Source: Desulfobulbaceae bacterium
GTDB lineage: Bacteria > Desulfobacterota > Desulfobulbia > Desulfobulbales > Desulfobulbaceae
Direction of reading: 5' to 3'
NCBI GenBank assembly: GCA_011391865.1
Contig: JAABPV010000008.1
Location: forward strand, 1-55,459
Length of the DNA stretch: 55,459 bases
Made by a program: the position numbers and the translations under genes. This document shows, one piece after another, positions 20,616 to 29,640 of this stretch; positions within the stretch are counted from its first letter, which is position 1, and every line of letters begins with the position of its first letter. Under the pieces are notes generated by a model. It was not told the origin of the DNA. It saw nothing but the letters and a program-made list of their open reading frames with translations, and searched no databases.

Positions 20616-21686
20616 CTACGCCGCCTGCACCTCCAAGATGTCTGTCAGTCTGCCGCCGTAGCTGTCGCGGATCAGCTCCTTCAAGGCCGCGAAGTTGTTC
20701 ACCCGCACGGTCAGACTGCTCACCGTTGAGCCGCTGAAGCCTGCCAGCGTCTGCTCGCCATTGCCAGTAACCGTGACCGCCGCGCCTGTCCTGCCGCCCT
20801 CCTCCTGCATGTCCGCCAGATTAAAAAGGAGCACGTCCGCCCGCAGATCAAGCGTCACCTGAATGCGCAGGGTCTCGTCCGCAGAAACACTGCCGCTCGT
20901 GATGCTGACGTATGGGTTCGAGGCCCTGCCGGTAAGGATGCCGGTCTCGCTGGCAAAGCCGTTCACAGGCAGCGGGGCGCGCAGCATCCGGCTGTACGTC
21001 CCAGTGCGCAGCGTACCGCGCTCGCTATAGCGGGCACTGACCGAGATCGTGTACTCGTTGTTCCACGGATTGGCCTGCGCTGGGATCTCCGGCATCAGGA
21101 GCATTTCTCCCGGCTCAATGCGGACAAAGCGACTCTGCGCTGTCCTGCCGCTCCGCGTGCCCTCAATCACACAGCCGCCTGCGTCTGGCTTAGTCCGGTC
21201 GAAGAAAAGATTCTCGCCAGTGAGCAGCAGCACGCCTGCCGGGTTGAGCAGATCTTTCAGCCCGGACACCGTGTCTTTCGCTGTGGCAATCAGCGGCAGC
21301 TTCTTCTCAAGCGGCAGGCGTTCGGTCTTGGCTGCTTGGCGCACGCTGTCAACAAAGGGCTGTGAGGCGTAAATACGGACTTGCAGGCATTGATCCAAGG
21401 GCGGCAGCGGATCGTCCGGGCTGTTCAGCCGTCCGGTAAAGGCCAGACTATAGGTGAAGGCGTTCTCCTCAGTCACCTGCTCGCCGCTGCTCAGGCTTTC
21501 CGCGATGAGCTGATTATGGAGGTCAATAAAGGTGCGGAACTCTTCCTCGCTGTAGTTCGGCAGCACCTTGGCCATGCGGGCGGCCATATCAGCCTTGCTT
21601 GCCACATTGCGGGGCAAGAAACGGATCCAGTACGACTGCGGCGTGGTCATAGAATTGATTTCAGGCCGCCATTGAATTGTTGCCAT
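20616..21686 (-). CDS. HU/IHF-like DNA-binding domain protein with DUF4469 (IG-like) domain, paralogue 1
   Basis: A 356-residue protein. The N-terminal part (about 1-130) fits the HU-like DNA-binding domain seen in Bvu_2165-type proteins (YSEEEFRTFIDLHNQLIAES, GEQVTEENAFTYSLAFTG). It is followed by an IG-like DUF4469 region (about 160-245: [37 protein letters not shown]) and a C-terminal beta-rich part of about 110 residues. A second copy, alike at roughly half of the positions by eye, is at 27427-28491. Neither has a signal peptide. Its promoter abuts a 23-bp-period palindromic repeat array, as does that of its paralogue. The function is unknown; DNA binding is inferred from the fold assignment. 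Confidence 0.72.
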   Translation of the reverse strand: MATIQWRPEINSMTTPQSYWIRFLPRNVASKADMAARMAKVLPNYSEEEFRTFIDLHNQLIAESLSSGEQVTEENAFTYSLAFTGRLNSPDDPLPPLDQCLQVRIYASQPFVDSVRQAAKTERLPLEKKLPLIATAKDTVSGLKDLLNPAGVLLLTGENLFFDRTKPDAGGCVIEGTRSGRTAQSRFVRIEPGEMLLMPEIPAQANPWNNEYTISVSARYSERGTLRTGTYSRMLRAPLPVNGFASETGILTGRASNPYVSITSGSVSADETLRIQVTLDLRADVLLFNLADMQEEGGRTGAAVTVTGNGEQTLAGFSGSTVSSLTVRVNNFAALKELIRDSYGGRLTDILEVQAA

Positions 21687-21741: not shown

Positions 21742-21770
21742 AGACTAACAGACGCGCTGGATTCTGTCAA
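21742..21770 (-). promoter_or_regulatory. Promoter of HU-like/DUF4469 paralogue 1
   Basis: On the minus strand TTGACA (21770-21765), a 17-bp spacer and TAGTCT (21747-21742) stand about 55 bp before the start codon. The paralogue at 27427-28491 has the same TTGACAGAA...17 bp...TAG layout at a nearly identical distance, which supports both. The repeat array begins 11 bp upstream of this -35. Confidence 0.6.
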
Positions 21771-21781
21771 GAACTACAGGA

Positions 21782-21902
21782 GGACAACAGCAAGGAGCCT
21801 CCTTGGATAACGAGAAGGAGCCTTGCTGCATACCGAGAAGGCTCCTCCTTATAAAACGAGAAGGCTCCTTGCCGTTGTCCAGCAAGGAGCCTTCTTGTCT
21901 GC
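21782..21902. repeat. Five tandem 23-bp palindromic units (array 1)
   Basis: Five units start at 21788, 21811, 21834, 21857 and 21880, exactly 23 bp apart. Each has a conserved core of about 13 bp, C[AG][AG][CG]AAGG[AC][GT]CCT, and a variable linker of about 10 bp. Core orientation alternates between AAGGAGCC and AAGGCTCC, so units can pair with one another. Examples are a perfect 12-bp stem aaggctccttgc/gcaaggagcctt (units 4 and 5) and an 18-bp outer stem with one mismatch (21782-21799 with 21863-21880). The array lies between the -35 of paralogue 1 and the cbiM terminator. There are no unique spacers of CRISPR kind and no cas genes. Confidence 0.85.
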
Positions 21903-21932: not shown

Positions 21933-21962
21933 AAAAAAGGGCGGACCCGAAGGCCCGCCCTT
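21933..21962 (-). terminator. Intrinsic terminator of cbiM
   Basis: On the minus strand an 11-bp stem aagggcgggcc/ggtccgccctt with a TTCG tetraloop runs into six T. It lies about 30 bp beyond the cbiM stop. Confidence 0.9.
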
Positions 21963-22645: not shown

Positions 22646-22819
22646 GGTGTACCTCCGGGTGAGAATAGGTGATAAGCTGCCGGGCCGTCATGACACGGCA
22701 AGGTGATTGCGGCGGAGGACACGCGGAGGAGGGCAGGGGGGGTCGGGACAGGGACGGGAGGCTGCGGAGGCGGCTTCCCGGCGTGTGCCGATGCCGCCCG
22801 CCGCAGCATGTCAAGGCCG

Positions 22820-22990
22820 GACTGACAAGGCAGGTTTCCGGGCTTGCGCGTGGAGCTTCCGCAGAAGCTCCCTCTCCGCCGCCTTCCCAGCCTGAGGGGC
22901 CAGTGGCATGAGGGCGGAGATTATACGCGCCTACCGTTGCGGGGGCAGCACCGGATTCGCCGGGGGGTCGGCTAACCGGATTTCCCTATC
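22820..22990 (-). promoter_or_regulatory. Cobalamin riboswitch
   Basis: Reading the minus strand, the conserved parts appear in the right order: GGGAAATCCGG near 22985, then gaatccggtgctgcccccgc and aacggta (about 22955-22930), GCCACTGG (about 22905), and the B12 box-like ggaaacctgcc (22839-22829) with the closing tgtcagtcc. This is the standard order for the AdoCbl class. It lies about 175 bp upstream of cbiM, so B12 would repress cobalt uptake. The stretch between it and cbiM (22646-22819) is very GC-rich and probably holds the expression platform. Borders are approximate. Confidence 0.9.
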
Positions 22991-23009
22991 CTTGACAGTT
23001 GCGAAGCGC

Positions 23010-23038
23010 AGTCTACCCCGGAGCCGCCGCGCTGTCAA
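23010..23038 (-). promoter_or_regulatory. Promoter of the cobalamin riboswitch-cbiM transcript
   Basis: On the minus strand TTGACA (23038-23033), a 17-bp spacer and TAGACT (23015-23010) stand about 20 bp before the first conserved riboswitch block. Confidence 0.65.
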
Positions 23039-27426: not shown

Positions 27427-28491
27427 TCAGGCCGTCTCCACCTTGAGCACATCCACCAGCCTGCCGCCGTAGTCATTGCGGATCATGTCCCACAGCGCGG
27501 CGTAGCTGTTCACAGTGATCTCGACGCTCGACACCGGCGAGCCGGCAAAGCCCGGCAGGATGTATTCCCCGTTCTGCGGCACGATCACCTCCGCGCCTGC
27601 CGCGCCGCCTTCCTGCATGTCCAGCAAGGAGAAGAGCAGCCGCCCGCCTTGCAGATCGAGGACGGCCTGGATGCGCAGCACAGTGTCCGCGCTGGCCGTG
27701 CCGCCGGTGATGCTGACATGCGCGGTCGCAGCATTGCCGGTGAGGATGCCGGTCCAGCTGCTCAGGCCGGGCACAGTCAGCGGGCTGCGCAGGAACCGGT
27801 CGTATGTGCTGGTGCGCAGCGTGCCGTGCTCAGTGTAGCGGGCGCTGACTGAGACGGTGTATTCATTGTTCCACGGATGCGCCTGGGCCGGAATCTCCGG
27901 CATGAGCATGATTTCGCTCGGCCCGACCTTGAGCAGCCGGGTCTGGACTATGCTGCCGCCTGCCGTGCCTGCAATCACGCACTGCCCTGCGCCGGGCACG
28001 CTCCGGTCAAAGAAGAGGTCATCGCCCAAGAGCTGAAGTGCGCCGTCCGGGTTGAGCACGTTCTTCAGATCCAGCAGGCTGTCTTTGGCCGAGCTGATCA
28101 GAGGGGCCTTCTTCTCCAGAGGCAGACGTTCGACCTGAGCGGACTGGAGCAGCCGGTCAAGAAAATTCTGCGAGATGCGCACCTTGACGTGCAGGCATCC
28201 GTCTAAAGGCGGGGTCGGGTCGTCCGCATTCTCCAAAACGCCGGTAAAGCTGAGATACCAGCTGAAGCTGCCGTGCTTGGTCACCTGCTCGCCGTTGAGC
28301 AGCCGCTCCAGAATGGCCTCGTCCTCGGCCTGGAGGATGGTCGCCACCGCTTCCGGGCTGAAGTTGGGCTGGCTGCGGTGGATGTCTGCGGCAAGGTCCT
28401 GCACATCCGCCGTGTTGCGGGACACAAAGCGCAGGCTGTAGGTTTCGGGCGTGGTCAGGGCGTTGGGTTCCGGTTTGCATTGAATGCTCAT
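27427..28491 (-). CDS. HU/IHF-like DNA-binding domain protein with DUF4469 (IG-like) domain, paralogue 2
   Basis: A 354-residue paralogue of the protein at 20616-21686, with the same domain order: HU-like N-terminus, IG-like DUF4469 middle ([32 protein letters not shown]) and a beta-rich C-terminus ending in [12 protein letters not shown]. The two align along their whole lengths with few gaps. It is followed after 68 bp by the purH-purN genes and preceded by its own promoter and a 23/24-bp-period palindromic array. The function is unknown. Confidence 0.72.
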
Positions 28492-28574: not shown

Positions 28575-28668
28575 AAAAACATGCGCCCCGGCATACGGAG
28601 CGTATGCGCAGGGGCATACGGGGATGTATGCGCAAGGGCATACGGAGCGTATGCGCAGGGGCATGTTT
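28575..28668. repeat. Tandem 23/24-bp palindromic units (array 2)
   Basis: Three full units start at 28591, 28614 and 28638, and a half unit starts at 28661. Each holds the palindrome GCATACGgagCGTATGC (middle unit GCATAC...GTATGC) followed by GCA[GA]GG. An outer inverted repeat (aaaacatgc...cccc at 28576-28589, ggggcatgtttt at 28658-28668) encloses them. The whole can fold as a branched hairpin. It begins a few bases upstream of the -35 of paralogue 2, matching the position and period of array 1 although the sequence differs. Confidence 0.85.
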
Positions 28669-28758: not shown

Positions 28759-29640
28759 CTAAACAACTCTCAGGTAGCTCTCAGAACGCTCCAGCTGCCA
28801 GAGCATATGCTTCGCTTGTCTCATGCCGCCCTCACTCCATATAATGTCATCCACGAAGTTTATGGCTCCATTGCCGCCGTTCTCCTGTCTGATCAGCTCG
28901 CGGCAGCGCAGGAAAGCTGGATGATCACCCTGCACCCCATGAAGATAGAGCATGGTGTACAGCGTCGCCACTCTCTGGTTCCTGTGGCCGATCTCATGGC
29001 TGATGCGCAGGCTCTGCTCAAGATGACTCAGGGCGGCGGCATAGTTGCCCTGCTTCCTGTGAAGACAGCTGATGTGGTTGAGCGTCGTCCTTTCCTGCTT
29101 TCTGTCGCCCAGCTCTTGGCATAGGGCAAGCATCTGCTCAAATATGGACACCTCCTCCGTGTGCTTGCCAATGCGCTCAAGGTCGCAGCCTGCCTCGCGC
29201 AGGCACAGCAGGCGCTCCTCCTTGCTCTCTTCCGGCAGCAGGGCGGCGGCCTTCTGCCAGTACGTGGCTGCCTTGGCGTAGCGCAACTGGACTTCTTGCA
29301 GGCGGGCTTGGGTAGCGCAGACCTCGGCAGCAGCGAGGGTGCGGCGGCGGGCCGCATCCTCCAGCAGCTCCTCGGCTTTAGCGTACTCGCCCGCCTCAAC
29401 GGCCTGCCTGACCGCCTGATCGTCGCCCACGCGGGCCAGCAGATCTTTGCGCTGGCGGGCAAGGTCGTGCTCCAGCAGCATAATGAGGAAGTCCTGGAGG
29501 TCGTCCTTGGTCATGTCCAGCTCCTTGGCATAGTGGGCAAAGACCTCCGGCGGGATGCCGCAGTTGTTCTGCTTGCCAATGGCGTGGTCGCCTTGAGCGG
29601 TGTTCTGCTCGCCGCCCTTGCTGTCGAAGTGGTCGTTCAT
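28759..29640 (-). CDS. TPR-repeat protein
   Basis: A 293-residue cytoplasmic protein. The N-terminus (GGEQNTAQGDHAIGKQNN, residues ~9-26) has the Gly/Asn/Gln-rich look often found at the front of large TPR, CHAT or NTPase signalling and defence proteins. Residues ~100-260 hold about four TPRs (RYAKAATYWQKAAALLP, EVSIFEQMLALCQELGDRKQ, HLEQSLRISHEIGHRNQ). The closing helices (INFVDDIIWSEGGMRQAKHM) are not TPR-like. It is probably a protein-interaction scaffold; partner unknown. It follows tamA by 28 bp. Confidence 0.75.
   Translation of the reverse strand: MNDHFDSKGGEQNTAQGDHAIGKQNNCGIPPEVFAHYAKELDMTKDDLQDFLIMLLEHDLARQRKDLLARVGDDQAVRQAVEAGEYAKAEELLEDAARRRTLAAAEVCATQARLQEVQLRYAKAATYWQKAAALLPEESKEERLLCLREAGCDLERIGKHTEEVSIFEQMLALCQELGDRKQERTTLNHISCLHRKQGNYAAALSHLEQSLRISHEIGHRNQRVATLYTMLYLHGVQGDHPAFLRCRELIRQENGGNGAINFVDDIIWSEGGMRQAKHMLWQLERSESYLRVV

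Follow-up and report, generated by a model that had tools for sequence, protein, structure and literature searches.

In ParR-parC and Rep-iteron systems a DNA-binding protein is autoregulated through an array of binding sites that belong to it and precede its promoter, and paralogous versions of such systems are mutually exclusive. Dyad operators beside the gene's own promoter are also the rule for ordinary autoregulated repressors, while the marks of a CRISPR locus are cas genes and near-identical repeats of more than 20 bp that alternate with unique spacers of about the same length. Classical HU proteins bind DNA with little sequence specificity, and the HU-HIG name for a set of HU-related domains reportedly goes back to the domain survey of Burroughs et al. 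2017. For the HU-HIG/HU-DNA_bdg plus DUF4469 proteins (PF18291, PF14848, PF14734; solved example 4fmr, BVU_2165) no array or target is reported in the accessible literature, in which DUF4469 itself goes unnamed. REP/BIME elements are regularly spaced palindromes of alternating orientation that are dispersed between genes, and that flank and coevolve with a fast-evolving RAYT gene (PMC2817692).

The window analysed here, a stretch of 55,459 nucleotides from a Desulfobulbaceae bacterium, belongs to the genome of a cable bacterium that shares its genus with Ca. Electronema aureum. It contains an array of five 23-bp units (21788..21902, no strand assigned), each with a AAGGNNCC(TT) dyad core and a linker of about 9 bp, and a detector score of 105 out of 140 that is attained solely at period 23. 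The five AAGGNNCC cores (21792-21799, 21815-21822, 21838-21845, 21861-21868 and 21884-21891, likewise unstranded) follow one another at the exact 23-bp step noted in the sequence-only reading of this DNA; they are AAGG(AG/CT)CC dyads that appear on the plus strand as AAGGAGCC or AAGGCTCC. When the 600 bp around the array were shuffled 2000 times in dinucleotide blocks, three or more in-phase cores never arose, and a scan of the window at periods of 15 to 35 bp returned this as the sole array above the scan threshold. The stems between units described in the same reading are also present (17-nt arms at 21856-21872 and 21882-21898, 94% complementary; 43-nt arms, 79%). Other details have to be revised: the alternation of core orientation is not strict, the centre dinucleotides being AG, AG, CT, CT and AG; 23 bp amounts to 2.2 turns of a helix with 10.5 bp per turn rather than to exactly two, which would be 21 bp; and the distance of 11 bp to the -35 box holds solely if the array is taken to start at 21782, the first unit lying 17 bp away.

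The array sits between the terminator of an upstream cbiM-like gene and the TTGACA -35 box (21765..21770, minus strand) of the gene for a protein with HU-like and immunoglobulin (Ig)-like domains, hereafter HU-Ig. The position of this box is conserved among the paralogues, and it was missed by a plain consensus scan because the -10 element is weak; the likely -10 is TAGTCT (21742..21747, minus strand) at a 17-bp spacer, as judged from its sequence and from homology with the other paralogue promoters. The terminator is an ordinary intrinsic one (21937..21962, minus strand), which adjoins the array and is separate from it. Neighboring genes encode the cbiM-like, YcaO and flavoprotein products, and a cobalamin riboswitch lies upstream of the cbiM-like gene at 22812-23035.

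The HU-Ig gene itself (20616..21686, minus strand) encodes 356 amino acids and belongs to a set of at least 30 paralogues in this genome. An AlphaFold model built from 89 relatives (pLDDT 95) predicts an HU fold at about residues 25-120, an Ig-like (DUF4469) domain at 128-238 and a third β-domain at the C-terminus. In structure comparisons the first region matches HU/IHF with Z-scores of 8.6-9.9 and the second matches Ig folds; the top solved match is 4fmr, an HU-Ig protein from Bacteroides, followed by HU and IHF. Over residues 1-239 the match to 4fmr (Z 12.4, rmsd 15.9 over 216 residues) reflects domains that correspond individually and differ in their mutual placement. A fold search with the C-terminal domain gave nothing above Z 4.7, an absence that is not in itself evidence. 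The earlier HU-like/DUF4469 label agrees with the predicted fold and with the many paralogues that match HU-HIG/DUF4469, but the window protein's own Pfam match falls short (HU-DNA_bdg, 21.7 bits against a cut-off of 30), whereas other members exceed both the HU-HIG and the DUF4469 cut-offs. A domain search found no nuclease or transposase domain in the window protein. An origin from phages, plasmids or viruses was considered and rejected, the protein having no match among phages, plasmids and viral contigs, and the downstream neighbors of the paralogues include no recurrent partner gene. A second paralogue in the window (27427..28491, minus strand), 55% identical to the first, is preceded by an array of four ATGCnCnnnnGCAT dyads at spacings of 23, 24 and 23 bp (28581..28664, no strand assigned), and a motif similar to ATGCnCnnnnGCAT recurs at C26:15976.

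Among 74 genomes of the family, HU-Ig proteins are confined to two genera of cable bacteria, which a search of named genomes identifies as Candidatus Electronema and Candidatus Electrothrix. To our knowledge, no cable bacterium has yet been obtained in pure culture. Up to 27 matches are detectable per cable genome, in addition to a divergent subfamily (22-28% identity) that emerged on reading the loci. Across 297 genomes of the phylum, DUF4469 scores above the cut-off solely in the window's own genome, with weak matches in two others. In four cable genomes (G059, G061, G063 and G064) many of the paralogues are fragments or contain internal stops; as far as the sequences tell, family members are still being gained and lost.

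The link between array and gene had been proposed for this one locus, and it proves far more general. We scored the upstream regions of 104 HU-Ig paralogues and homologues from cable bacteria with a detector that rates four 14-bp units on their mutual similarity in either orientation and on their self-palindromy. At a score of at least 84, a level that no other period exceeded within the same 104 regions, a 23-bp-period dyad array precedes 76 of the 104 genes (85 at a score of at least 75), and a clear array is missing at the remaining 28. The arrays keep step with the promoter: where a -35 box can be recognised, 34 of 47 sequences place their dyads in two neighboring positions modulo 23 (R=0.71), a figure for which we withhold a P value because the related genes are not independent. 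The distance from the -35 box to the start codon is 84-90 bp in most paralogues. The dyad, in turn, differs for nearly every paralogue (GCAAGnnCTTGC, CACAGnnnnCTGTG, ACATACnnGTATGT, CCATGCnnGCATGG, TCCACTATAGTGGA and more), which rules out a single motif common to all homologues; AAGGNNCC is retained upstream of a homologue of 59-60% identity in the other cable genus. The 5' untranslated region of many paralogues additionally contains a conserved stretch, approximately ATCTCAACCAGTTGAA, ahead of the ribosome-binding site.

Arrays of this kind are not limited to HU-Ig promoters. A scan of 1.67 Mb of the 2.80-Mb window genome (about 60%) recovered 62 arrays at period 23, against 0-7 at each other period from 15 to 35 with the exception of 21, and none after local shuffling. 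They are absent where the paralogues are few or lacking: a cable genome with one or two HU-Ig paralogues (G060) has no 23-bp array in 200 kb, where about seven would be expected at the density of the window genome, and two relatives without an HU-Ig protein have none in the 100 kb scanned in each. In the window genome 45 of 58 arrays do not adjoin any HU-Ig gene. We compared symmetrised motifs across 70 arrays, including separately obtained paralogue loci, and found 29 array pairs with a common motif (r at least 0.8) as opposed to one in a column-permuted null. These define 17 motif families of 2-4 arrays each, with 1-4 copies per motif. Exactly one HU-Ig-promoter array is present in 14 of the 17 families and two are present in none, compared with a mean of 7.4 under label permutation (P=0.002); some families have no paralogue within the roughly 60% of the genome that was sampled. 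The scattering that the sequence-only reading had set against a tie to the gene is thus found in part, the window motif recurring at two unrelated loci (C11:20060 and C37:17165), while the link to the promoter is still strong. The array is therefore not the private regulator of one gene, and specificity for the window HU-Ig gene alone is ruled out. The motif of a paralogue at C48 likewise recurs at C37:16912, beside the copy of the window motif at C37:17165.

The dyads have a characteristic anatomy. Across 57 strong arrays the two sides of a dyad are complementary at a rate of 0.39 in the central pair and of 0.53-0.82 over the eight pairs that follow, dropping to 0.31-0.36 beyond them, with 0.25 expected by chance; one pair out from the center the value is already 0.71. 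As the relaxation affects the central pair alone, this argues for two half-sites around an indifferent 2-bp center, as would suit a dimer, rather than for a hairpin loop, which would loosen one more pair or several. Same-motif arrays at different loci agree at 0.76 in their cores and 0.44 in their linkers (unrelated pairs, 0.28 and 0.26), and the core agreement between loci approaches that of the units inside one array (0.78).

The reading we favor, with a probability of about 0.6, pairs every HU-Ig protein with a dyad array that it would recognise and through which it would autoregulate, while copies of such an array would spread and turn over at a small number of intergenic positions elsewhere. 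Cable bacteria encode a family of some 30 paralogous HU-fold/Ig-like proteins, and on this account each protein, as a dimer, would contact its dyad through two half-sites of 4-6 bp about the indifferent 2-bp center. Four to nine dyads at 23-bp steps might pack dimers side by side; where the array directly precedes the -35 box of the gene encoding the protein, their occupancy would set expression, probably by repression or tuning through a bent nucleoprotein array. One to three further intergenic copies would be bound by the same protein. These distal arrays turn over between species, and protein and motif would diversify together, leaving no motif common to two distinct paralogues in the sampled genome. 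A tentative extension, to which we give somewhat less than even odds, is that dozens of orthogonal HU-Ig/dyad-array pairs address chosen sites on the chromosome, with fast joint change of specificity and a layout comparable to that of expanded zinc-finger families; this would be the first known function of HU-Ig proteins.

Motif sharing follows protein similarity in broad terms, being observed in 18 of 22 protein pairs with at least 80% identity versus 22 of 2828 pairs below 80%. An attempt to map specificity onto the HU helices failed. Of about 70 residue windows in an identity-matched test, the one at residues 36-45 stood out with a z of no more than 2.9, and such suggestive windows are contradicted by individual pairs: the window protein and L068 have a common motif with HU helices that are just 52% identical, whereas L075, L076 and L087 are 81-88% identical in these helices, yet have other motifs. 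L076 and L087 lie at the same place beside purL in two species and are 73% identical, and their motifs are unrelated. In the absence of a match between HU helix and motif, other parts of the protein may decide specificity, or arrays may have been swapped between some genes. This mismatch is the chief weakness of the favored reading, against which also stand the 28 genes lacking a clear array, the low sequence specificity of classical HU, the majority of arrays that lie away from HU-Ig genes and the motif families in which no paralogue was seen.

The strongest rival, though on balance an unlikely one, regards the arrays as selfish repeats of the REP/BIME type, that is, as non-autonomous dispersed palindromes with a founding copy at an HU-Ig gene, which the protein helps to spread or persist, or which hitch-hike, regulation being incidental. 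The cable arrays resemble REP/BIME elements as spaced palindromes that are dispersed between genes and are tied to, and apparently coevolve with, a cognate gene. The setting of the distal arrays fits this rival: their neighbors are housekeeping genes that share no function (lysA, bioC, transketolase, hisD, cysS), and divergent gaps hold few of them (2 of 36, against 105 of 462 gaps). So does their turnover. At the lysA site, the 23-bp array of Ca. E. aureum (G054; lysA 96% identical) carries a different motif, which the window genome has at C5:23645, and five other cable genomes have no array there; at the bioC site the array is present in the window genome alone. A reading as conserved distal targets was rejected on these two sites, neither being kept in relatives. 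Against the rival stand the HU-Ig protein's lack of a nuclease or transposase domain, the 1-4 copies per motif rather than hundreds, the fixed promoter phase at HU-Ig genes and the variation of linkers among copies, owing to which the arrays are not fresh duplicates. The cable arrays further differ in their strict 23-bp period and their location on the promoter side of the gene. Of the defining features of REP elements, a Y1 (HUH) transposase flanked by repeats is represented in the genome by one partial Y1_Tnp match (C4:19470), which is not beside the window array; the GTAG/CGTC tag at the palindrome foot is absent from the window array on reading; and instead of a high copy number per class there are 2-4 arrays per motif family in 1.67 Mb. 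With RAYT gene and tag absent, membership in REP/BIME fails, though the two behave similarly over time and the cable arrays may well be selfish in part.

That the arrays might be chromosome-organising sites, anchoring nucleoid bridging or segregation instead of serving as operators, appears improbable. The HU fold, the occurrence of one motif at a few distant loci and the position of some arrays between convergent genes (C11:20060) would agree with it, but neither the dozens of orthogonal motifs nor the rapid turnover would be expected of segregation sites, and the gene-proximal array stands at a fixed promoter phase. Least probable is an RNA-level element whose transcribed hairpins end or stabilise transcripts: the minus-strand RNA of the window array does fold much more stably than its shuffled versions (z=-5.2), one stem inside it scores as terminator-like and many arrays lie between co-directional genes, but paralogue arrays are upstream of the promoter, pairing is loosened at the central pair alone (0.39, then 0.71) rather than over a loop of three or more, every paralogue keeps its own sequence, and RNA folding needs no lock to 23 bp or to the -35 box.

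The sequence-only reading had also set aside terminators, REP elements and CRISPRs, and we concur, none of them fitting when its defining features are tested. An intrinsic terminator, a single G+C-rich hairpin ahead of a T-run where a gene ends, is ruled out by five phased units on the HU-Ig promoter side, with the cbiM terminator separate at 21937-21962, and a CRISPR by 14-bp variable dyads with 9-bp linkers beside cbiM-like and YcaO genes. Coding repeats are ruled out too, 23 not being a multiple of 3 and the arrays showing no sign of translation, though some long open reading frames overlap them. A ParR-parC locus is rejected, the neighbors being CbiM, YcaO and flavoprotein genes with no gene for a ParM/ParA filament or NTPase; in contrast to ParR-parC and Rep-iteron systems, the arrays lack a ParM/ParA/Rep partner, are chromosomal, number dozens per genome, are built of dyad units and have distal copies. 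From ordinary repressor operators they differ as tandem arrays of 4-9 dyads at fixed 23-bp steps with orthogonal motifs across a paralogue family. The proteins resemble other HU-HIG/DUF4469 proteins in domain order, predicted fold and, for many members, family matches, but stand apart in their number, about 30 paralogues in each genome, and in the private 23-bp array that most of them possess.

A text search of six cable-bacterium papers from the non-subscription literature (PMC10926707, PMC10030654, PMC10580974, PMC12093952, PMC11976967 and PMC7873302) turned up neither palindromic arrays nor the HU-Ig family. The arrays and the HU-Ig genes look like a large undescribed set of matched protein/DNA-address pairs. 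We know of no system in which non-transposase proteins, orthogonal to one another and numbering dozens, are each matched to a private, phased dyad array. As there is no known equivalent, and no array family tested shares its defining features with these arrays, we regard the system as new in kind; if binding served ordinary autoregulation alone, it would be closer to known kinds. Should the favored reading hold, it would give the HU-Ig (HU-HIG/DUF4469) proteins a testable function, indicate that the HU fold is able to evolve dozens of separate DNA specificities, provide a natural, ready-made set of orthogonal protein/array pairs and offer an opening onto gene regulation and chromosome layout in cable bacteria.

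Several further observations concern the neighborhoods of the arrays. A TPR/STAND gene is the upstream neighbor of about 13 of 93 HU-Ig genes, as against 14 of 1401 genes overall, and the second paralogue in the window has such a neighbor at 28759-29640. Two different arrays occur in tandem twice, at C37:16912 and C37:17165 (L010) and at C5:23645 and C5:23814 (L200); these arrays, and those of G059/G064 (L072, L073), are found directly downstream of NB-ARC/TPR (STAND, NLR-like) genes. Palindromic arrays also occur in a second class, with a period of 21 bp, ATTCCAATTGGAATCGNNNNN and other motifs, up to at least 12 units per array and 54 arrays in 1.67 Mb (e.g. C12:13841, C22:2780, C33:96022, C2:1756 and C3:18854; L154, L161, L178, L191 and L194). 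None of these adjoins an HU-Ig gene, some overlap open frames, and one is also present in G060, which is nearly devoid of HU-Ig genes. Other dispersed palindromes of the form TAGGGGCGATTC...GAATCGCCCCTA share intergenic gaps with arrays, namely upstream of lysA in G054 (L321), in G000 (L320) and upstream of the C13 paralogue (L117). Finally, nearly identical arrays at C11:88611 and C11:91187 (L172) lie 2.6 kb apart and flank one large gene, and are possibly the outcome of a local duplication that carried the array with it.
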